Shown here: positions 35,238-51,864 of the stretch, in pieces
Layout of the letters: every line of letters begins with the position of its first letter
Position numbering within the stretch: the stretch's first letter is position 1
DNA from: Aeriscardovia aeriphila
GTDB taxonomy: Bacteria; Actinomycetota; Actinomycetes; Actinomycetales; Bifidobacteriaceae
Direction of reading: 5' to 3'
Assembly (NCBI RefSeq): GCF_002259595.1
Contig: NZ_MWWU01000002.1
Location: 744,001-808,000 of the forward strand
Length of the DNA stretch: 64,000 nt
Made by a program: the position numbers and the translations under genes
The notes under the pieces: generated by a model
The model's input: only the letters and a program-made list of their open reading frames with translations
What the model was told of the DNA's origin: nothing
The model's database searches: none

Positions 35238-36041
35238 ATGAAACGAGCTCCTCAGGTTGTGACCTACACCTCCACGACGCAAGATTTCGTGAAGTCCGCC
35301 GACCAAAACCATCACCTTCCCGCCGGCTACCGCTACTATCACGGCCACGGGCTCGCGCAACGCTGCTTCTACCACATCATCTACTTCCTCGCCTACCTCA
35401 TTTGTTGCGTCTACGGCTACCTATGGCTCGGCATTCGCATTAAAGGCAAGCGGCAGATGAAGCGTACTTTGCGCAAACTTCACGCCAAGAGCTCCTTCAT
35501 TTATGGCAATCACACGCTTGCCGGTGGAGACATCGCGTTAAGCGTTTTGATGAACTACCCTCACCATATTTCCGCGGTCGTCGCGCTGGGAAATATCGGC
35601 ATTCCGGTGATCGGCCCGATGTTGCACCAGCTCGATTTTCTTGCTGTTCCCCACACGCTTGAGGAAAGAAAAAACTTTAAGATTGCCATGACGCATTTGG
35701 TCGAGGACGGCACTACCTTCATGATCTACCCGGAAGCTCACGTCTGGCCGTGGTACACCAAGATCCGCGACTTCTCCTCTACTTCCATGCGTTACCCTGT
35801 GCGCTTTAAAACCCCGAGTTTCGTTGCCACCACAACCTTCCACCGCAGACGGTTTGCCTGGCTCAACCCGCGCCCCGCCATCACCGTGTACATTGATGGA
35901 CCTTTTTACCCTGATAATCTTGAGGCAAGCGAACAGGAGCAAAAAGAGAGCTTACACGCCAAGATCGTTGAAACTATGCGTAAGAGGGCGGAACTTTCTG
36001 ATTATCAGTACGTGATTTATGAAGAACAAGCAGACAAATAA
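35238..36041 (+). CDS. PlsC-like acyltransferase (first of two)
   Basis: 267 residues. A TM segment at about 45-65 (CFYHIIYFLAYLICCVYGYL) precedes the acyltransferase region: FIYGNHTLAGGD, where the usual NHxxxxD is spaced by five residues between His and Asp; YPEAHVWPW takes the place of the EGTR block. PlsC enzymes acylate lysophosphatidate; such variants may act on other lipids. A TATAGT box ends 8 bp before ATG, with no clear SD, so translation may be near-leaderless. Dispersed-word copies lie at PDNLEAS and LSDYQYV. Heads the GT8/acyltransferase cluster. Confidence 0.82.
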   Translation: MKRAPQVVTYTSTTQDFVKSADQNHHLPAGYRYYHGHGLAQRCFYHIIYFLAYLICCVYGYLWLGIRIKGKRQMKRTLRKLHAKSSFIYGNHTLAGGDIALSVLMNYPHHISAVVALGNIGIPVIGPMLHQLDFLAVPHTLEERKNFKIAMTHLVEDGTTFMIYPEAHVWPWYTKIRDFSSTSMRYPVRFKTPSFVATTTFHRRRFAWLNPRPAITVYIDGPFYPDNLEASEQEQKESLHAKIVETMRKRAELSDYQYVIYEEQADK

Positions 36042-36208
36042 AAACAGTTTGTCAACTCAGATCGGTGAGTGCTGACTTCCCAGACTCTTTGTCTCGTAGA
36101 ATACCGGAAGGTTTTGTGCGCTTGTGCCTTGTGTGAGTGCTCGGCTGTACTTTCGCTGGTGTGCCTCAAAGCTGAGAAGCAACAGAAAACGATAAAGCGA
36201 GGTGACAT

Positions 36209-37153
36209 ATGCTCGAGCGCTCACGCACGAGACGACGAGTCACGACCTCACCACATGCTAGGCCTGCCAGCAGCATCAACCTGCTCTACTGCGGCGATCA
36301 GAACATGCGAGACGGACTTCTCATTTCTGTGCTTTCGCTGACCAAGCACACATCAACACCTCTCCACGTTTTCGTTCTGACAGCACATGTCAGCACACAA
36401 ACTCGCGAATTCCTTGCTTTGCAAGAAAGCGATGTCGAAGCTGTGCGCGAGCTGATCACAGAGCATAACGCACAAGGAAGCTTGACTCTCATCGACATCA
36501 CTGACCTTTTTGAAGCTCAGCCTCCTACGGCCAATATGCAAACGCGCTTCACTCCCCTGTGCATGTTGCGTCTATATGCCGATCAGCTCAGCGCTATTCC
36601 TGACCGTCTCCTCTACCTCGACACAGATATTGTTTGCCACAAGCCTTTTGAACAGTTCTACAACCAAAACCTCGATGGCGTCGAACTGGCAGCAGTGCTC
36701 GATTATTACGGACGCTGGTTCTTCCGCCAGAGGTATTCACATATGCTTCCTGACTATTTCAATTCAGGAGTGCTCTTGCTCAACATGGCCGAAATTCGCC
36801 GCACTGGTCTGTTTGCGCGCTGCCGCGATATGTGTGAAAACAAGTGGATGTTCATGCCTGACCAGTCTGCATTGAATAAATGTGTGCGATCCAAGGTCAT
36901 TGCCTCCCATCGTTTTAACGATCAGCGCCGCTTCCACTCCAACACAGTTTTCCAGCACTTTACTACCTCCTTCCGCTTTTTCCCCTTGTTCCATGCAGTC
37001 AGCGTGAAACCATGGCAGGTGGAAGAGGTCCACTCTACTTTGCATTTGCACGAGTATGACGATTTGCTGGAAGAATTCCAACAGCAACGCTCACAACGCC
37101 TTACTGGAATTGACGTTGAGAGCAATACAGAAAGGATCATTGAAGATGAGTGA
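36209..37153 (+). CDS. GT8-family glycosyltransferase (first of two)
   Basis: 314 residues, ATG 36209 behind GAGGTG. The nucleotide-sugar site of GT8 is shown by INLLYCGDQNMRDGLLISVLSLTKHT, the metal-binding RLLYLDTDIVCHKPFEQFYN (DxD at about 139) and YFNSGVLLLNMAEIR. GT8 enzymes retain the anomeric configuration, commonly Gal/Glc transferases of cell-wall or LPS-type glycans. The C-terminus (VEEVHSTLHLHEYDDLLEEF) is unconserved. The 3' end overlaps the next GT8 gene by 8 nt. Confidence 0.92.
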   Translation: MLERSRTRRRVTTSPHARPASSINLLYCGDQNMRDGLLISVLSLTKHTSTPLHVFVLTAHVSTQTREFLALQESDVEAVRELITEHNAQGSLTLIDITDLFEAQPPTANMQTRFTPLCMLRLYADQLSAIPDRLLYLDTDIVCHKPFEQFYNQNLDGVELAAVLDYYGRWFFRQRYSHMLPDYFNSGVLLLNMAEIRRTGLFARCRDMCENKWMFMPDQSALNKCVRSKVIASHRFNDQRRFHSNTVFQHFTTSFRFFPLFHAVSVKPWQVEEVHSTLHLHEYDDLLEEFQQQRSQRLTGIDVESNTERIIEDE

Positions 37154-38141
37154 GCCAACCGCCACCTCCTTGACGGAAACCCAGCCAACTGTGACTGTTT
37201 TCTTCGCCTCAGATGAAACGTATGCGCCTTACCTTTCGGTAGCCATTACCTCTCTTCTCGCTAATTGCGACCCGCGTCGCCGTTACCACATCATTGTGCT
37301 GGAGCGCGGAATGAGCCATGAGCACCAGCATCAGCTTGTTGGCCTTTCTCAGCCCAATGCCACGGTGGAGATGTGCCATATTTCTGACAAGATCAATGAC
37401 TTGGTCAATTCAGATAACAACACTTTGGTTGCAGACTATAAGACGACTACACTCTATTTCCGTCTGTTCATTCCTGAGCTTTTCCCCGACATTGATCGTG
37501 CCATTTACCTGGATACGGACACCGTTATCACCGACGACGTTGCACAGCTGTATGACATCGACTTGCAAGGTAACCTCATGGGTGCCGTCCATGATCAAAC
37601 CATGGATGTGCAAGAAGCTTTGATTCGCTATTGCCAGGCTGAGCATGGTTTTGATACTCGCGGTTACATCAACTCTGGTGTACTTCTGATGGATTGCCAG
37701 CGCTTGCGCGAAATCAACTTTGTTCAGCAGTTTACTGAGCTGCTCAACACCTATCACCCTGAGCTTGCCGCCGTCGACCAGGATTACATCAATGCCATGC
37801 TTCATGACAGTCTCCTGTTGCTCGATCCACGCTACAACGTGTTGAGCGCCAATGGACCAGACGATGTTGCTGATCCGTGCATCATTCATTTCAACCTCTT
37901 CAACAAGCCGTGGAATTATCCTGATGTGTTGCGAGCAGACATCTGGTGGAAGTATGCAGCGCAGAGCCCAAACTATGAGGAACTGTTGTTGCGTTTACAG
38001 AACTTCCCTCCTATCAACCGTGAGCTGGACGAGTTGAAGAAGCACCGTTTGATGAATCAAGCGTGGGCGATTACCGATCATGCGAACCCCACTTTTGCTT
38101 CATTGATTAAAGATGGTGTTCAGGTTCGCGTGAAGATGTGA
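37146..38141 (+). CDS. GT8-family glycosyltransferase (second of two)
   Basis: 331 residues from ATG 37146, inside ATGAGTGA at the previous stop, SD AAAGGA. Domain order: TVFFASDETYAPYLSVAITSLL, YFRLFIPELFPDIDRAIYLDTDTVITDD (DxD at about 122), TRGYINSGVLLMDC, and the closing HFNLFNKPW that belongs to the GT8 acceptor side. Both GT8 proteins share this plan but are not near-identical, so they probably transfer different sugars in one pathway. Cytoplasmic, no TM. Confidence 0.94.
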   Translation: MSEPTATSLTETQPTVTVFFASDETYAPYLSVAITSLLANCDPRRRYHIIVLERGMSHEHQHQLVGLSQPNATVEMCHISDKINDLVNSDNNTLVADYKTTTLYFRLFIPELFPDIDRAIYLDTDTVITDDVAQLYDIDLQGNLMGAVHDQTMDVQEALIRYCQAEHGFDTRGYINSGVLLMDCQRLREINFVQQFTELLNTYHPELAAVDQDYINAMLHDSLLLLDPRYNVLSANGPDDVADPCIIHFNLFNKPWNYPDVLRADIWWKYAAQSPNYEELLLRLQNFPPINRELDELKKHRLMNQAWAITDHANPTFASLIKDGVQVRVKM

Positions 38142-43684: not shown

Positions 43685-45607
43685 ATGGAAGAGCACGCGA
43701 GCGAACCTCTCATTACCCCTGCGAACTCACCTGCGAGCGAGCCATCGAGAACATCACCGAGCACATCGCAGAACACCCCTCGTCATAAGAGAGTTCTGCG
43801 AATAATCGTGCTCATCCTTGCTTCACTCATCACTCTCTGCGCGCTCATACTGGGAATGATCTGGTCGAATTTCACTGAAACTGGTTGGCAGTCAGGCTGT
43901 ATTGCCATCCAAATACCTGACGGCAATTCCCATCACAGCTCTGATCACAGCTCCGATCAAACCTCCAATAAAACGTCCGCTGACACCTCAGGAACTTCTC
44001 CCAACAATTCTGCTTCTTCTCAGCACTCCTCACGCTCAGTAAACAACACCAAACATCAGCATTCTTCCTCCTGCACGGATTCCACCACCAGGTTTTCTGA
44101 CGCTCAGATGCGCGATAAGGAAACAATCACCTACTCGGTGGAGCAATGGTTCCGCGATTGGATTAACCTGCACCAGCGCTGGACTACCGCACCTAATAAA
44201 CAGATTGCGCAGCTTGATAATCTCAGGGTAAACTTCCTGTCCACGCCAGTCGAAGACTCCGAGCAAACTGATTCCAGCGTGGAAAACAAGCCAAACCGCT
44301 TTGCCGACGAGGCTTTCGTCAACGTCATCATGGACTTCACCCCTCGCTTCAGCGCATGGGAAGCCTTCTCTGCCGACCAACTTCTGCAACCGCTTTTCTT
44401 CAACGGCACTACGATTCATGTCGATATGATTCTCGAGCTCAGTTTGACGGCGAAACACTACTCGATCCTTGAGGCGATGACCGAGGCACGCTACCAGATT
44501 TTCACTGAACCGCAAACCCTTGAACCACCTCGACCCCAGCATCCCACTTATTTGCCGAAGGCTGGCCAGAAAAATACGTACGAGATTACCAGGAATTCCT
44601 TACTCGTCACCTACGATGGGAACAACTGGGTTTCCGTTCCCGGCCCGGATGGCAACAATGCCGTGGACGGGCTTGCCTATTTGGATGATCATGCAATTAC
44701 TGCTCAGTTGCCGGTGAATTCCTATGTGATTTCGCCTGAGTTTACTGGTTTCTTGTATGACATGTCGAAGAGCAAGATGACCGGGCAGGCTGCTTCGAAC
44801 TCGAACACGCCTGATTCGTCAACTGACAGTGATTCAGCACAGGTCAATCCTTCTCAAGGAAGCCCATCTGACGCTCATCCATCTCAGAGCAATGACCGTT
44901 ACTCCTATGATCCCAGTGATCCTGACCAAGCTGCGCTCATCTTCTCTCTTGATGAGGGAAAGAACTGGTATTACTCGCCTCTCGGCCATGGATTTTTGGA
45001 CAGTGCGTACATTTCGTACGCTCAGGGACGCATTTTGGTCGGTTATGACGTGGATGCAGCTTTGGGCTCTGAACTGATGAATGTGGCGATCTCCCCTGTT
45101 CCTTCTGCTGATCAGCTTGCTCACGCTTCGCAGTTGAATTCTGCCTCACCCTCTCACGGTTCTGGGAGTTCAGGCAATGCACCTTTGACTTCTGTGTCGT
45201 TGCCCTGGAAAGCAATTGTGCCGAGTGAGCGTGCTGATGACGTGAACTTGGCAACCCTGCTTCCTCAAGGGACAATTCTGATAGGCTACAGCGGTCATGA
45301 GAGTAACCCGCAGAAGCCTGCACAGTTGTACACCTCTACCGATGGAAGCTCATTCACGAGTGTCAGCGTTCCTGCAAGTGCTGATTCTCAAAAGCTTGGC
45401 TGGGAGCCCTTTGTTGTTCCTCGCCGAGTAGAAATTGACGCGAATGGCAATGTGTTTGTCGCTATCGGTCAAGGTCAAGATGGTGACTATGCACACAACA
45501 AGCGCTTCTACGAGGGCATCTATCAGCTCTTTGACGCTGATAGCAATCACCCTCGTTTAGATTTTGTACGCTCGCAACTGCAACCAGAAGTTCAGCTTCC
45601 AGGCTAA
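43685..45607 (+). CDS. Membrane-anchored extracellular protein with Asp-box-like repeats
   Basis: 640 residues. A cytoplasmic Ser/Pro/Thr tail of 36 residues, one TM at about 37-60 (VLRIIVLILASLITLCALIL), a long Ser/His/Asn linker to 130, then a domain to the end with FSLDEGKNWYYSPLGHGF and YTSTDGSSFTSV, which look like BNR/Asp-box turns of sialidase-type beta-propellers. Catalytic Arg triads of sialidases are not obvious, so it is likely a binding or scaffold protein. A second low-complexity linker (about 365-405) interrupts the domain. Start ATG 43685; only weak SD. Confidence 0.78.
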   Translation: MEEHASEPLITPANSPASEPSRTSPSTSQNTPRHKRVLRIIVLILASLITLCALILGMIWSNFTETGWQSGCIAIQIPDGNSHHSSDHSSDQTSNKTSADTSGTSPNNSASSQHSSRSVNNTKHQHSSSCTDSTTRFSDAQMRDKETITYSVEQWFRDWINLHQRWTTAPNKQIAQLDNLRVNFLSTPVEDSEQTDSSVENKPNRFADEAFVNVIMDFTPRFSAWEAFSADQLLQPLFFNGTTIHVDMILELSLTAKHYSILEAMTEARYQIFTEPQTLEPPRPQHPTYLPKAGQKNTYEITRNSLLVTYDGNNWVSVPGPDGNNAVDGLAYLDDHAITAQLPVNSYVISPEFTGFLYDMSKSKMTGQAASNSNTPDSSTDSDSAQVNPSQGSPSDAHPSQSNDRYSYDPSDPDQAALIFSLDEGKNWYYSPLGHGFLDSAYISYAQGRILVGYDVDAALGSELMNVAISPVPSADQLAHASQLNSASPSHGSGSSGNAPLTSVSLPWKAIVPSERADDVNLATLLPQGTILIGYSGHESNPQKPAQLYTSTDGSSFTSVSVPASADSQKLGWEPFVVPRRVEIDANGNVFVAIGQGQDGDYAHNKRFYEGIYQLFDADSNHPRLDFVRSQLQPEVQLPG

Positions 45608-45687: not shown

Positions 45688-48012
45688 TTACTCATGGTCG
45701 AGATACTTCGGTACTGCAGGCAAGCTGTTGGGCTGATTCATGTACTGCGCCCAGGAGAGCACACGTTTCTTCATTTCCTCCACGTCAAGCACGCCATAGG
45801 CAAAGCCCTTGCGCAGCAGCGTTGGAGGAATGAACTTATCGTACTTTTGAAAGCGCGGCGCATAATGAGGGCCGAGCAGGTCAAGCGGGTCGAAGTCGCG
45901 GGCAGCCTCTTCGGTCACGATGTGGAAGAACTCCTCTGCGGTAGCTTCCATTTGCAGCATGATGTAGTACGGCTTGAGCGATTCCAGCTTTTCCAAGCCG
46001 AGACGCTCACCGCATTTTCTGGAGAGGAACATCTGCAACGCAGTGAACGAGTACGTACCCAGCCACGGGAACAACGCCCAAGTGTTTCCTCCCAGGTGAA
46101 TGAGCGGCGAGTCGGCAAGGCCTGCATGGTCATACAACGAGCGAGCATCTTGCAAACGGAAGCGAGCATGGCGCATAAGGTACGGGTACATCGTGTTCTC
46201 AGCGAGAACATCCCTCATTCTTTCGAGAATTCGGGTATGAATGTCGCCCATCTCATCGCCGAAGAATGCAGGAACATTGCCTCCTGTAGGCTCAACATAG
46301 ACTTCGTTGCGATGCCAGTCGACTTCCTTCACTTTCCACACATGTCCAGCAATAGCAAGCTTCTCGTCTTCTGGCGGTGGGAGAAGAACAGTACCCAACT
46401 GCTGTGAACCGTAATGAACGGTATATTCCTCAGTATCGTTGAAAACAGCGTAGAACTTGTAGTCATTAACTACTCTTTCACCCGTTGTTCCCAGGATGAT
46501 CCCATCATGCTCGGTGAGCTCAATATGCCCGATTTTAATCAGGTGGGTCAGCAGTTCTCGGTAGTCATCGGTGCTGATATTGCTAAACGGCGAAAGAGTG
46601 AGAACTCGCGAGGCAAGCTCTGCAGGAGTCATCTCTCCATTCGATTTGAGCGTGCTCATCGTCTGATGGTAGAGAAGAGAGTACGGAAACCTGCCCAAAC
46701 GAGGCGGTTCCACAAATCGCTCTTCTGTGTAGAGCTGAACCAATGCAATTCCTTGAATCAGCGACCACGGAATGCGCGCAGCAAATTCCGCATTCTTGTT
46801 CAGGTGATGTTCAGCCATCACAAACCACATTTGGGATGGCTGGCCTCGTCGGCCCGTTCTTCCCATGCGCTGAAGGAAGCCAGAGACGGTTGCTGGAGCT
46901 TCCGCTTGGAATGCTCGATCGAGTTTTCCCACATCGATGCCGAGCTCCAGGGTAGCTGTAGCGCAGATCGATTTCAGCGAGTCATCATCTTTCATATCCT
47001 CTTCTGCGCCCTGGCGTACTGCAGCAGAAAGGTTGCCGTGGTGAATGAGGAATCGATCCTCTTCCCCATTCTTCGCGCAATACTCACGAAGCAGTTGGCA
47101 CAGCAGTTCGCAATCCTCACGGGAGTTGGTGAAGATGAGGCTCTTATGCCCCCTCGTGTGCTCGAAAATATAAGCAACGCTGGGCAGAGCGTACTCAGGA
47201 GCTTGATCCGTCGGCGGTTCAGGTTCGAGCGGAGCTTGGAGAAGTTCACCGGCGATCGCTGGGTCGCGATCATGATCCGCTTGATCCCCGTCATCGTAGA
47301 ACTGTTCCATCGACAGCTGCCACACCTCAGGCTCGCTCTGAAAACGAGGAATAACAGTGCGCCTCGTTGTTCCGGCAGCAAGGAAGTCACCTACGGCGAG
47401 AGGGTCCCCTATTGTTGCAGACAAACCAATGCGGCGAGGGTCGCAGCCTGCCGTACGGCACAAACGCTGGATGAGAGCGAAGGTTTGCAAACCACGGTCT
47501 CCTCGCAACAGCGAGTGAATTTCATCAATGACGATGAAGCGAAGGTCCCCAAACAGCGAAGGGATAGCAGCATGCTTGTTGATCAGCAGGCTTTCCAACG
47601 ATTCTGGGGTAATCTGCAAAATACCTGCAGGATGCTTGATCAGCTTAACTTTCTGGCTGGTGGAAGCATCACCATGCCAGCGGGTTACCGGGATACCCGC
47701 TTCCTGGCACAGCTCATTGAGCCTTCCAAACTGATCATTAATCAGTGCCTTGAGCGGAGCAATGTAGAGGACACCCACACTGGTGGAAGGCTTTTCTTCC
47801 AGCAGAGTGAGGATGGGGAAGAATGCTGCTTCCGTTTTTCCCGATGCGGTTGAAGCGCACAACAGCACGTGGTCATCCGAACCAAAAATGGCTTGACCAG
47901 CGGCATTCTGCACTCCCCTGAGCGACTTCCACCCAGAACGGTAAATGTACTCTTGAATGAAGGGTGCATACCTCGAGAAAACATCGATGCTGTGTGAGTT
48001 CTTGCTCTCCAT
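45688..48012 (-). CDS. Lhr-like DEAD/DEAH-box helicase (BrxHI-like)
   Basis: 774 residues, SF2. Q-like WKSLRGVQNAAGQAIF, motif I CASTASGKTEAAF (Lys59), Ia IAPLKALINDQ, II VIDEIHSLLRGDRG, III GLSATIGDP, then LIFTNSREDCELLC, ATATLELGIDVG and QRMGRTGRRGQPSQ. The C-terminal 300 residues form the Lhr winged-helix and unique region. It is the last of three codirectional genes after the TerB-N protein and BrxD-like ATPase, an arrangement that in other bacteria accompanies BREX or TerB-type DNA-processing modules. It lacks a nuclease domain. Confidence 0.9.
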   Translation of the reverse strand: MESKNSHSIDVFSRYAPFIQEYIYRSGWKSLRGVQNAAGQAIFGSDDHVLLCASTASGKTEAAFFPILTLLEEKPSTSVGVLYIAPLKALINDQFGRLNELCQEAGIPVTRWHGDASTSQKVKLIKHPAGILQITPESLESLLINKHAAIPSLFGDLRFIVIDEIHSLLRGDRGLQTFALIQRLCRTAGCDPRRIGLSATIGDPLAVGDFLAAGTTRRTVIPRFQSEPEVWQLSMEQFYDDGDQADHDRDPAIAGELLQAPLEPEPPTDQAPEYALPSVAYIFEHTRGHKSLIFTNSREDCELLCQLLREYCAKNGEEDRFLIHHGNLSAAVRQGAEEDMKDDDSLKSICATATLELGIDVGKLDRAFQAEAPATVSGFLQRMGRTGRRGQPSQMWFVMAEHHLNKNAEFAARIPWSLIQGIALVQLYTEERFVEPPRLGRFPYSLLYHQTMSTLKSNGEMTPAELASRVLTLSPFSNISTDDYRELLTHLIKIGHIELTEHDGIILGTTGERVVNDYKFYAVFNDTEEYTVHYGSQQLGTVLLPPPEDEKLAIAGHVWKVKEVDWHRNEVYVEPTGGNVPAFFGDEMGDIHTRILERMRDVLAENTMYPYLMRHARFRLQDARSLYDHAGLADSPLIHLGGNTWALFPWLGTYSFTALQMFLSRKCGERLGLEKLESLKPYYIMLQMEATAEEFFHIVTEEAARDFDPLDLLGPHYAPRFQKYDKFIPPTLLRKGFAYGVLDVEEMKKRVLSWAQYMNQPNSLPAVPKYLDHE

Positions 48013-48059
48013 TTTCCGCTCTTTTCTACTTACAACACTGAATTCTTCCTTATGAGTTA

Positions 48060-49409
48060 TTACAAAGTGAACTGTGCGAACTGAGGCACAGTTTGGTTAG
48101 AAACACTCTCATCCTGCGCATAGGTGAAATCATCCGACTTCAGAAGCTCATCCACGCTCATATCAGGGTGCTGATAGATCAAATCCAACAATTCGATGAA
48201 GTCACGAATCACCTCGCGAGGGGTGATGTGATCATCCGCGCCAATACGCGCATACTCAATTTTGAGGAACTGTGCGAGGTCTTCATCGCTCAAATGCGGC
48301 TCGTAATCGTACAAGCCAGCATGCATATGCTCGAGTTTCTCACACAGAACAAGCATCTCTTCCATGCTCAACGGGTCGAGGCGAATCACCGGTGCGAGGA
48401 GGTCGCGGGCACCTGGGCGGGAGAACTTGCCTTCGGCCAAGCGGGAGCGGAGAGCTTCATACGAGTAGATTCCGCGACGGCTATCCTCCAAAGTTTGTGG
48501 AGTGGCACCCATAATAATTCCCAGGTAGCGAGCCTTGCCTTGCAAGGTGTCGTTATACATGGTGAGAATCTTTTCGTAGTTGTACTGGCGAGTAATGGCG
48601 TTCGGCACCTTATAAATGTTGATCAGCTCGTCGATCATGATGAGCATGCCTTCATACCCGGCCAGGCGGAAGAATTGGGCGAAGAGTTTGATGTACTCGT
48701 ACCAATCGTCATCGGTAATGATGATGTTGATTCCCAAAGCTTCCTTCGCGTCACGCTTGAGCGGGTATTCTGCCCTGAACCAGCGGATCACTTTCTGCTT
48801 GAGCTCATCGTCGCCTTCCCGATAAGCCTGGTAGTAGAGGGTGAGCAGACGAGCGAACTCAAAGCCGTGAACCATTTCATTCATGGCCTGAGTAACCGCA
48901 TAAATCTTGTTTTCTACCTGTGCTTCCAGTTCGGGAGCATCTGCAGAAAGGCCCGTCTCTTGCATGGTTTGAACCTGCACGTTGCTAATCCAGCGGTCCA
49001 AAATGAGAGTGAGGGCGCCACCTTCGGGCTTCGTCTTCGTCGACAAGTTAGTGATCAGCTCACGGTAGGTTGCTAAACCTTGACCGCGAGTGCCTTGCAG
49101 CCTGCGTTCTGGGGAGAGGTCAGCATCGGCAACAATGAAGCCACGGTCCATCACATAGTTTCTAATTGCTTGAATCAAAAAGCTCTTACCCGAGCCATAC
49201 CTACCCACGATGAAGCGGAAGGAAGCCCCGCCTTCACTAATGATGTCAACATCACCTAAAAGCGCGTCAATTTCGCGTTTGCGGCCCACAGTGATGTACG
49301 GCAGGCCGATACGAGGAACGACGCCACCTTTCAAAGAATTGATGACAGTACGCGCAATTCGGCGAGGGATACGCCTGTTTTCGCGCTCCACGCTCTTTTC
49401 TTCACTCAT
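48060..49409 (-). CDS. P-loop ATPase (BrxD/DUF2791-like)
   Basis: 449 residues from ATG 49409, overlapping the TerB-N gene by 8 nt (ATGAGTGA). Walker A is VGRYGSGKSF (residues 68-77), preceded by a VPRIGLPYITVGRKREIDALL approach and followed by ADADLSPERRLQG; Walker B is LIMIDELINIYK (about 267), and MGATPQTLEDSRRGIYSYEALRSRL forms the sensor region. The set matches the DUF2791/BrxD-type ATPases that couple to Lhr-like helicases. Likely a DNA translocase or loader for the downstream helicase. Name BrxD is used by analogy; pgl/BREX core genes are absent. Confidence 0.85.
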   Translation of the reverse strand: MSEEKSVERENRRIPRRIARTVINSLKGGVVPRIGLPYITVGRKREIDALLGDVDIISEGGASFRFIVGRYGSGKSFLIQAIRNYVMDRGFIVADADLSPERRLQGTRGQGLATYRELITNLSTKTKPEGGALTLILDRWISNVQVQTMQETGLSADAPELEAQVENKIYAVTQAMNEMVHGFEFARLLTLYYQAYREGDDELKQKVIRWFRAEYPLKRDAKEALGINIIITDDDWYEYIKLFAQFFRLAGYEGMLIMIDELINIYKVPNAITRQYNYEKILTMYNDTLQGKARYLGIIMGATPQTLEDSRRGIYSYEALRSRLAEGKFSRPGARDLLAPVIRLDPLSMEEMLVLCEKLEHMHAGLYDYEPHLSDEDLAQFLKIEYARIGADDHITPREVIRDFIELLDLIYQHPDMSVDELLKSDDFTYAQDESVSNQTVPQFAQFTL

Positions 49410-51666
49410 CTTGATGTTCCTCTCTGAGCACAGCTCGTACGTCTTCTTCATAGTCAGGAACGAGCGAAAGGTTATCGCCATCGCTCTCAATGACGACATC
49501 GCCGATCTGCTCGTACAACGCATCATTGATAGCATCGGCAACCATCGATGCCATCAAATGCTTGTCGCGAAGGTTCTGGCTCACATCACTGCCCACAAGC
49601 AGCTTGGTTAAGACATCATGATACTGAGCAAGAACGCTCGTTTCGACCTTGCCAGTCTGGTCAGGTACATCCTCTAATTTCGTTGGAATAACAGGCTTTT
49701 GCGCAGGCTCTGGCTGCTGAAGTAGCTCCGGTTTCTGCGCGTTTTTTGTTTCTGGCTCGTTTTGCGCGACTTCCAACTCGATTTTTTCGCTCAGAGCGTT
49801 ATCTACTCCCCTTTCTTCGTCGGTGAGCAGATTTTCCCGTGTCACATCAGCATCCCTGCGAATCGTCTTGAGCTGCGAAAAATCAATGGAAATCGCCGCA
49901 ACCCGTGCCTTCGCCTTCTCCTCGCTCTGGCGAGCCTGATACTGCTGAACAACAGTGTGAGCAACCTGGTCAAAAACCTGATCTTGCGCCTTGTGCCGCA
50001 AGTAATGCCCAGTTTTCAAAAGCTTTCTCAGCACCAAATCAACCGAATGAACGAGTCGTCCGATGAGCTCGGTTTGGAAGAAAACCTTGTCATACCGCTT
50101 CATCATCCACTTTTGGTGGAGATATTCAATCGTCGTCACCTCAGTAAGGTGATACGTCACAGCCTGTTCTGGCCTGTCGATGAGCACGACAGCATCGCTC
50201 AATCCTTCTGACGGGTAGGTTTGCGGATTATCGAAGCACCGAACGAACAGGGGTTCACCCTCGAAAGGCGAGTCAGTGTTAATCTCACGCCATGCCTGGG
50301 CAAAAAGGTGGCGCGCAACCTCAGGGTTTTTGGCAACGGCAGGTGAAGCCGACACTTTTCCGCCACTAAAGTAGTCCAGCGCCTGGCACACCTCAGCATC
50401 GTTATGCTCGTCAAAATCCCTCAAGATTACCAGGTTGCTATCTTGTTCCAGCAGCTCAGGGTCGACATACTTGCGCATGGTTTGCGGCGGGAACGAATAG
50501 ATAATTCCTAAGAAGAGCATCCAGCGCCGATACATGCTGATCGCTCCCAAAGGCCCTAAATGCTGCTTTCGCATGGCTTGCGTAAAGGCAAGAAGCTTAT
50601 CGAGGGAATCTTGAACATCACGGGTACCAATGCCGTTGAGCAGCTCGTAAACGTACATGGTGAAGAATGCAGGGGAAGCCTGCTTGAGTGAGCCTTGCCG
50701 CACGTATTTGCGCCAAGTGAAGTAGCCGCGCAGTTGAGCTGCATTGAAATCGTGATAGGTCGGAGAAAACTTGATGAGATTCGTCAGCCACGGCTTGTCA
50801 TCTTCATAATCTTGCATGAAGGTGCCTTGAACCACGAAGTTATGCGCATCGTTGATGTCACCATTGCGATGTTCATGGGTGTACAAGCTCTGCATTTGCA
50901 GAATTTTTTCCGGGATTTTCGCGCTGTTGCGCGGCAATCCGAGGTCGAGGGTTTCGGCCATGCGCTGCGCTTGTTCAGCGCGCTTACGCATCTCGGCGTT
51001 GAAAGCTTCTGTTGCGGCCGTGTGATCATGTACTGCGGGTTGGCTTGCGGCATCCTGTTGGTGCGGCGGGAGCATGGTAGGCGGCACGAAAAGCAGAGGG
51101 TCACTCACCTGGGCAGCGGATGCTTCAACAGTTTGGCGTGATGCTGGCGATGCCTTGCGAAGAGTCGAAGGCGAAGTTTCTGGGAAAGTCACTGGCGAAG
51201 TGGAATGTGGAGCAACCGGGTAAGCGGTTTGAGAAGCGAGAGGTTGTTCCTCGTTGACGTGCATTTTGTCGTAGAGTTTGCGTGCCATTCCGCGATACTT
51301 GCGCACGAGCTCCTGCGGGGCGTTCTCTCGAGCGATTTTCTGCGCGTGGTCGAGCAACATGTAGACGGAGTCTTCATCGCGTACCTTGTCGAAACGCACT
51401 CCGGCCCAGTCTTTTCCTTTCTTCCTGAAAGGCTTGGAGACTTGGCCCGAGACAAGAACACCGAACTCGTAGCCGCATTTGATGTCACAGCAGGGAACAT
51501 CCTCGAAAGACTTTTCATCCCATAAGTCAATGATATAAGCGATAACCGTACCGCTGTGATGCTCGCTCACCGTGTATTCGTCAGGGTAATCTCCCCATCC
51601 CTTTTGCACGAGAACATCAAGCTCTTCTTGAGCTCGGGCATACTCTACGAGGTCGGAAAGTTCCAC
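49402..51666 (-). CDS. TerB-N/TerB-C domain protein of a DNA-processing operon
   Basis: 754 residues from GTG 51666 (SD GAAAGG). Residues 1-130 form an unrecognised alpha/beta domain (CCDIKCGYEFGVLVSGQVSKPFRKKGKDW). After a Pro/Ala/Ser linker (135-205) comes the TerB-N domain, about 255-345, with LQMQSLYTHEHRNGD, SPTYHDFNAAQLRGYFTWRKYVR and YVYELLNGIGTRD. The C-terminal TerB-C-type part runs from ISIDFSQLKTIRRDADVTRENLL (about 600) to ADAINDALYEQIGDVVIESDGDNLSLVPDYEEDVR. The central metal-binding TerB itself seems missing. First gene of the operon with ATPase and helicase. Confidence 0.82.
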   Translation of the reverse strand: MELSDLVEYARAQEELDVLVQKGWGDYPDEYTVSEHHSGTVIAYIIDLWDEKSFEDVPCCDIKCGYEFGVLVSGQVSKPFRKKGKDWAGVRFDKVRDEDSVYMLLDHAQKIARENAPQELVRKYRGMARKLYDKMHVNEEQPLASQTAYPVAPHSTSPVTFPETSPSTLRKASPASRQTVEASAAQVSDPLLFVPPTMLPPHQQDAASQPAVHDHTAATEAFNAEMRKRAEQAQRMAETLDLGLPRNSAKIPEKILQMQSLYTHEHRNGDINDAHNFVVQGTFMQDYEDDKPWLTNLIKFSPTYHDFNAAQLRGYFTWRKYVRQGSLKQASPAFFTMYVYELLNGIGTRDVQDSLDKLLAFTQAMRKQHLGPLGAISMYRRWMLFLGIIYSFPPQTMRKYVDPELLEQDSNLVILRDFDEHNDAEVCQALDYFSGGKVSASPAVAKNPEVARHLFAQAWREINTDSPFEGEPLFVRCFDNPQTYPSEGLSDAVVLIDRPEQAVTYHLTEVTTIEYLHQKWMMKRYDKVFFQTELIGRLVHSVDLVLRKLLKTGHYLRHKAQDQVFDQVAHTVVQQYQARQSEEKAKARVAAISIDFSQLKTIRRDADVTRENLLTDEERGVDNALSEKIELEVAQNEPETKNAQKPELLQQPEPAQKPVIPTKLEDVPDQTGKVETSVLAQYHDVLTKLLVGSDVSQNLRDKHLMASMVADAINDALYEQIGDVVIESDGDNLSLVPDYEEDVRAVLREEHQDE

Positions 51667-51724
51667 GGTCTGCCTTTCGTCGAACAGATGTTCCTCTTTT
51701 TGTTATAGCAGAAAATAAGAGAAC

Positions 51725-51753
51725 AAAAAACGGAGAGGCAGAGCCCCTCCGTT
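51725..51753 (-). terminator. Terminator of tpx
   Basis: A 10-bp stem with one wobble (51744-51753 with 51729-51738), 5-nt loop, and TTTTTT on the minus strand. It separates tpx from the TerB operon. Confidence 0.88.
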
Positions 51754-51864
51754 TCCTGATTTTCACTTGTTCCGTTCACTACCGCTGCTCGACGAATCAG
51801 CAGGTGCTCGCCTTCACCATGGGAAGCTGAAGCGCGCTGATAATCTTGAGCGATGCTGTGAACG

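Follow-up and report, generated by a model that had tools for sequence, protein, structure and literature searches.

The Shango system (sngABC) is reportedly to be credited to Millman et al. in 2022. It consists of three genes, which encode a TerB protein, an ATPase, and a helicase (Johnson et al. 2023, PMC10250203). The PA14 Shango operon cloned into P. aeruginosa PAO1 confers protection against several phages, and activity in E. coli had been reported earlier according to the same study (PMC10250203). A 2026 review lists the mechanism of Shango as unknown (PMC12926258). BREX type 2 contains a homologous ATPase and helicase, BrxD and BrxHI, as a tightly linked pair. BrxD has been described as an ORC/Cdc6-like AAA+ ATPase and is proposed to load BrxHI, an Lhr-like SF2 helicase (PMC12839542). 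The Shango helicase SngC shares a clade of defence helicases with BrxHI, DruE, and DpdJ, but its partner proteins differ from those of the Hachiman, Druantia, and Dpd helicases (PMC12278908).

The window analysed here is a stretch of 64,000 nucleotides from Aeriscardovia aeriphila. Its open reading frame listing contains three intact frames, sngA, sngB, and sngC, on the minus strand between positions 45688 and 51666 (Table 1). They very probably (about 0.9) constitute a Shango anti-phage operon that is complete and apparently intact, as judged by profile matches and gene order.

Table 1. Features of the sng locus, with positions in the window
Feature	Position	Strand	Description
sngA	49402-51666	-	754 aa, GTG start; PADLOC SngA 2.4e-54; TerB_N + TerB_C; AlphaFold model pLDDT 79
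YjbR/MmcQ (DUF419) 'double-wing' domain, SngA residues 1-110	51337-51666	-	profile and fold match
TerB_N domain, SngA residues 248-365	50572-50925	-	PF13208, 8.5e-17
TerB_C domain, SngA residues 578-744	49435-49935	-	PF15615, 3e-19; internal linker 637-675, by pLDDT
sngB, BrxC/BrxD-family P-loop ATPase	48060-49409	-	449 aa; PADLOC SngB 629.8 bits; PF10923
sngC, SF2 Lhr/BrxHI-like helicase	45688-48012	-	774 aa; PADLOC SngC 869.5 bits
Terminator-like 16-bp stem and T run, between tpx and sngA	51724-51758	-	pattern scan

An earlier note on this DNA had described three closely spaced genes with an 8-nt overlap and a gap of 50 bp. The overlap is exact, because sngB starts at the ATG at 49409 (MSEEKSVEREN...); this start is a correction of the mechanical reading frame, which reaches 49541. 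The gap between sngB and sngC measures 47 bp. The stem at 51724-51758 stands between the operon and the thiol peroxidase gene (tpx) upstream of it, and is by far the longest in a scan whose total count of terminator patterns is not above chance. It suggests that the sng operon is a transcription unit of its own.

The operon is flanked by ordinary genes (tpx, flavodoxin, acetyltransferase, peptidase M13, SSB, and PGA_cap). No defence genes were found near it in the window, and the locus lies outside any defence island. A gene convergent with sngC (43685-45607, plus strand) encodes a 640-residue Ser/Thr-rich protein with no Pfam match. Across 189 family genomes it recurs in the nearest relative only, apart from one weak partial match, and is lineage-specific. 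The lowest G+C content of the window (49.5% versus about 55%) occurs at 36001-38000, some 1.5 kb from a tRNA-Gly gene, and PADLOC gave no match on this segment.

All three products have Shango models as their best PADLOC matches. SngA scores 183.9 bits, SngB 629.8 bits versus 154.6 for BrxD, and SngC 869.5 bits versus 424.1 for BrxHI. The genes are adjacent, co-directional, and ordered A-B-C, which is the Shango arrangement. SngA is divergent at 184 bits: its residues 228-747 align to positions 63-527 of the 528-position PADLOC profile, and the N-terminal part falls outside the model. A Pfam search confirms the earlier assignment of a TerB-N/TerB-C protein, a BrxD-like ATPase, and an Lhr-like helicase, with E values of 8.5e-17 and 3e-19 for TerB_N and TerB_C (PF13208 and PF15615), 1.4e-168 for BrxC_BrxD (PF10923), and 2.6e-29 and 7.8e-18 for the DEAD and Helicase_C domains of SngC. 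The copy is an ordinary, previously unnamed instance of a widespread known defence system, and is neither a new system nor a minimal BREX. The earlier note had proposed a phage-defence or DNA-processing operon that was either a stand-alone module or a minimal BREX variant. Phage defence and the stand-alone module, namely Shango, stand, and the BREX variant does not. The note overrated the novelty of the locus because it did not name Shango. Phage protection by the Aeriscardovia copy is predicted from that of PA14 Shango. The locus differs from described Shango in its host lineage, a gut relative of Bifidobacterium, in its position outside a defence hotspot, and in a SngA domain that the PADLOC model does not cover.

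SngA comprises a YjbR-like domain (residues 1-110), a disordered linker (118-214), TerB_N, a helical middle region, and TerB_C. According to the AlphaFold pLDDT, a second disordered linker (637-675) splits TerB_C. The canonical metal-binding central TerB domain (PF05099) gave no match in SngA or elsewhere in the genome, in agreement with the earlier view that the central metal site seems absent. The tail after the second linker (residues 676-754) was compared with LysR winged-helix domains, and the match (Z about 4.9) is too weak for a claim.

The N-terminal domain, earlier called unrecognised, is assigned by profile and by the fold of the AlphaFold model as a YjbR/MmcQ (DUF419) domain of double-wing/CyaY-like fold. 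The Shango form in the window is accordingly one whose SngA bears such a domain at its N terminus, and the domain is common to 46 of the 67 SngA proteins compared. The family profile of residues 1-110 matches PSPTO_3016 (2kfp/3h9x) over its full length with an E value of 3.9e-13. The Pfam YjbR profile (PF04237) matches 9 of 14 family members tested (best 1.9e-6) and gave no match with the window's own SngA alone. Full-length SngA was modelled with 63 relatives, yielding a mean pLDDT of 79 and values mostly about 87-95 in the N-terminal domain. In this model, residues 1-110 match 3h9x with a Z score of 13.6 and 2.4 Å over 110 residues, followed by two further YjbR folds, 2a1v (Z 11.1) and 2fki (Z 10.5). 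A single-sequence AlphaFold model of the domain had a pLDDT of 41.5 and was set aside. SngA thus resembles PSPTO_3016 and E. coli YjbR of the YjbR/MmcQ family over residues 1-110, but here the domain is fused to TerB-N/TerB-C.

The YjbR family has a probable DNA-binding fold, predicted from structure, and YjbR-TerB fusions have been mentioned in the same work (PMC7641849). By extension from the family, the YjbR domain of SngA is predicted to bind DNA. A literature search found no paper tying the YjbR domain or YjbR-TerB fusions to Shango.

The N-terminal regions of SngA in three Bifidobacterium loci (L026, L027, and L030) appear YjbR-like by eye but give a weak profile match with a probability of 69%. 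One locus (L081:3742-8970) carries two different tandem sngA genes, encoding 1092 and 648 residues, ahead of a single sngB-sngC pair. Both products begin with a YjbR-like domain, and the arrangement suggests interchangeable SngA subunits. Another locus (L101:5910-9026) encodes a SngA of 1038 residues with about 410 extra residues before the YjbR domain, which is possibly an additional domain or an over-long start.

SngB contains a Walker A motif (GRYGSGKS) at residue 69 and an MIDE motif at residue 258. SngC contains the helicase motifs ASTASGKT, DEIH, SAT, and QRMGRTGR. These Walker A, MIDE, and SF2 helicase motifs are intact here and conserved across the family. No solved structure was matched to SngB by sequence profile. 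Pfam searches of the three products found no nuclease or toxic effector domain, and the earlier statement that no nuclease is visible holds.

The three proteins diverge at different rates. Over 67 operons, the median pairwise identity is 45% for SngA and 81% for both SngB and SngC. Within SngA, the linkers vary freely, and TerB_N, the YjbR domain, and TerB_C keep about 48-56% identity. The much faster change of SngA is as expected for a sensor or adaptor subunit. The pairwise distances of SngA, SngB, and SngC correlate at 0.86-0.91 over the same operons, indicating that the three proteins travel as a unit. In a quick SngB tree with few well-supported branches, the window copy clusters with a copy from Bifidobacteriaceae (support 94), and relatives from different phyla are close in sequence.

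SngB and SngC are present in 13 of 189 Bifidobacteriaceae genomes, distributed over five genera. All 13 loci retain the A-B-C order, as do nearly all of 80 loci sampled more widely across many phyla, with few exceptions. The 13 copies lie mostly between different genes, although Bifidobacterium copies that are closely related have a common neighbourhood. The earlier note had called for such a neighbourhood survey, and the result is that of an accessory operon. All four genomes of the genus examined carry SngB, so that the operon looks stable within the genus. The same genomic place is occupied only in the nearest relative; the SngB proteins of two other species of the genus are about 66% identical and have other neighbours. 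In a comparison that yielded no empty site, the flanks of one copy (genome G002) are not adjacent in its relatives. One family genome has sngB broken into three pieces by a frame change or stop (L033, G030:C12:88480-89791) and represents a decayed or mis-assembled Shango.

Across species-level genomes in general, at least 584 confirmed SngB relatives occur in many phyla, largely from gut and rumen. The best among the matches listed share 74-78% identity and belong to Bacillota, Bacteroidota, Spirochaetota, Chloroflexota, and others. More distant relatives are found on 675 plasmids, many of them conjugative, and the two plasmid loci inspected have the same order of TerB, ATPase, and helicase genes. 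The distribution is that of a mobile accessory defence system. Carriage by phages was also considered and rejected, as no SngB was found in 50,697 phage records.

Some loci contain inserted genes. Three rumen genomes share a near-identical small module between sngA and sngB (L048:7050-8000, L053:6960-7916, and L060:7027-7977). Its products have about 74, 171, and 73 residues, the 171-residue one starting with LILYHGSNTEV, and it is perhaps a toxin-antitoxin unit. DNA methylase or restriction-like genes lie between sngB and sngC in two loci (L059:3783-6813 and L060:11554-14574), so Shango operons can also accommodate further defence genes.

Two other accounts of the operon would place it outside Shango defence. 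In one, it is a BREX type 2 module, degenerate or minimal, in which only the BrxD-BrxHI pair has been retained and which works by BREX logic. The linkage of this pair in BREX-2 (PMC12839542) and the matches of SngB to BrxD (155 bits) and SngC to BrxHI (424 bits) fit this account, but the Shango models outscore both by hundreds of bits, and SngB reaches 156.7 bits with the BrxD equivalog NF033438, whose cut-off is 350. Partners are also missing. The locus has a TerB-N/C protein instead, and PglX, PglZ, BrxC/PglY, and PglW were not found near the operon, with PglX and PglW sought at its flanks. The assembled genome (about 84% complete) contains a single BrxC/BrxD-family gene, and for PglZ there is only a partial, weak match at a distance of about 280 kb. 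The same three genes moreover recur as a unit across phyla. On the profile scores and the missing partners, the BREX account is rejected as extremely improbable. Hardly more credible is a housekeeping or stress-related (Ter-linked) DNA-processing role in the lineage rather than defence. The earliest discussion of TerB-N/C domains concerned stress and DNA processing, every examined genome of the genus has the operon, and its surroundings in the window are free of defence genes. A core operon, which the earlier note had named as a refuting case, is rejected by the sparse family distribution, mostly with different neighbours. The diverged SngB proteins with other flanking genes within the genus, the broken family copy, the plasmid-borne homologues, and the phage activity of Shango elsewhere (PMC10250203) likewise speak against it.

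How Shango would act on phage DNA can be outlined tentatively, and the outline is somewhat less likely than not to be right in detail. The YjbR and TerB-N/C modules of SngA may let the protein recognise, or attach to, infecting DNA or a nucleoprotein state produced by the phage. SngB, as an ORC/Cdc6-type AAA+ ATPase, would load or activate the SngC helicase at the SngA-marked site; this loader-motor part is drawn by analogy only. Translocation or remodelling by SngC would then block replication or expression of the phage DNA, and unwound DNA might be left to host nucleases. Host nucleases or a block of replication or expression are proposed because the operon encodes no nuclease. A less probable course is abortive infection, in which sensing of phage DNA by the complex would lead to damage or arrest of the host, the phage DNA itself not being the target. 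PMC12278908 describes certain helicase systems of several genes, Hachiman among them, that sense the state of DNA and release a toxic effector, but Pfam searches of the three proteins and the fold search of SngA found no toxic effector domain.

The YjbR domain of SngA could be an interchangeable DNA-recognition module that sets which phage DNA Shango acts on, although this is an unlikely proposal at present. If it were true, Shango would be a nuclease-free loader-helicase defence whose target range shifts by exchange of SngA domains, with the YjbR form as the lineage that dominates in the gut. Beyond what is known of Shango, the analysis adds a name for the locus, the YjbR domain, and evidence that the variability lies in SngA. 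A probable DNA-binding module and a diversifying SngA, set against nearly fixed SngB and SngC, provide a concrete, testable division of labour.
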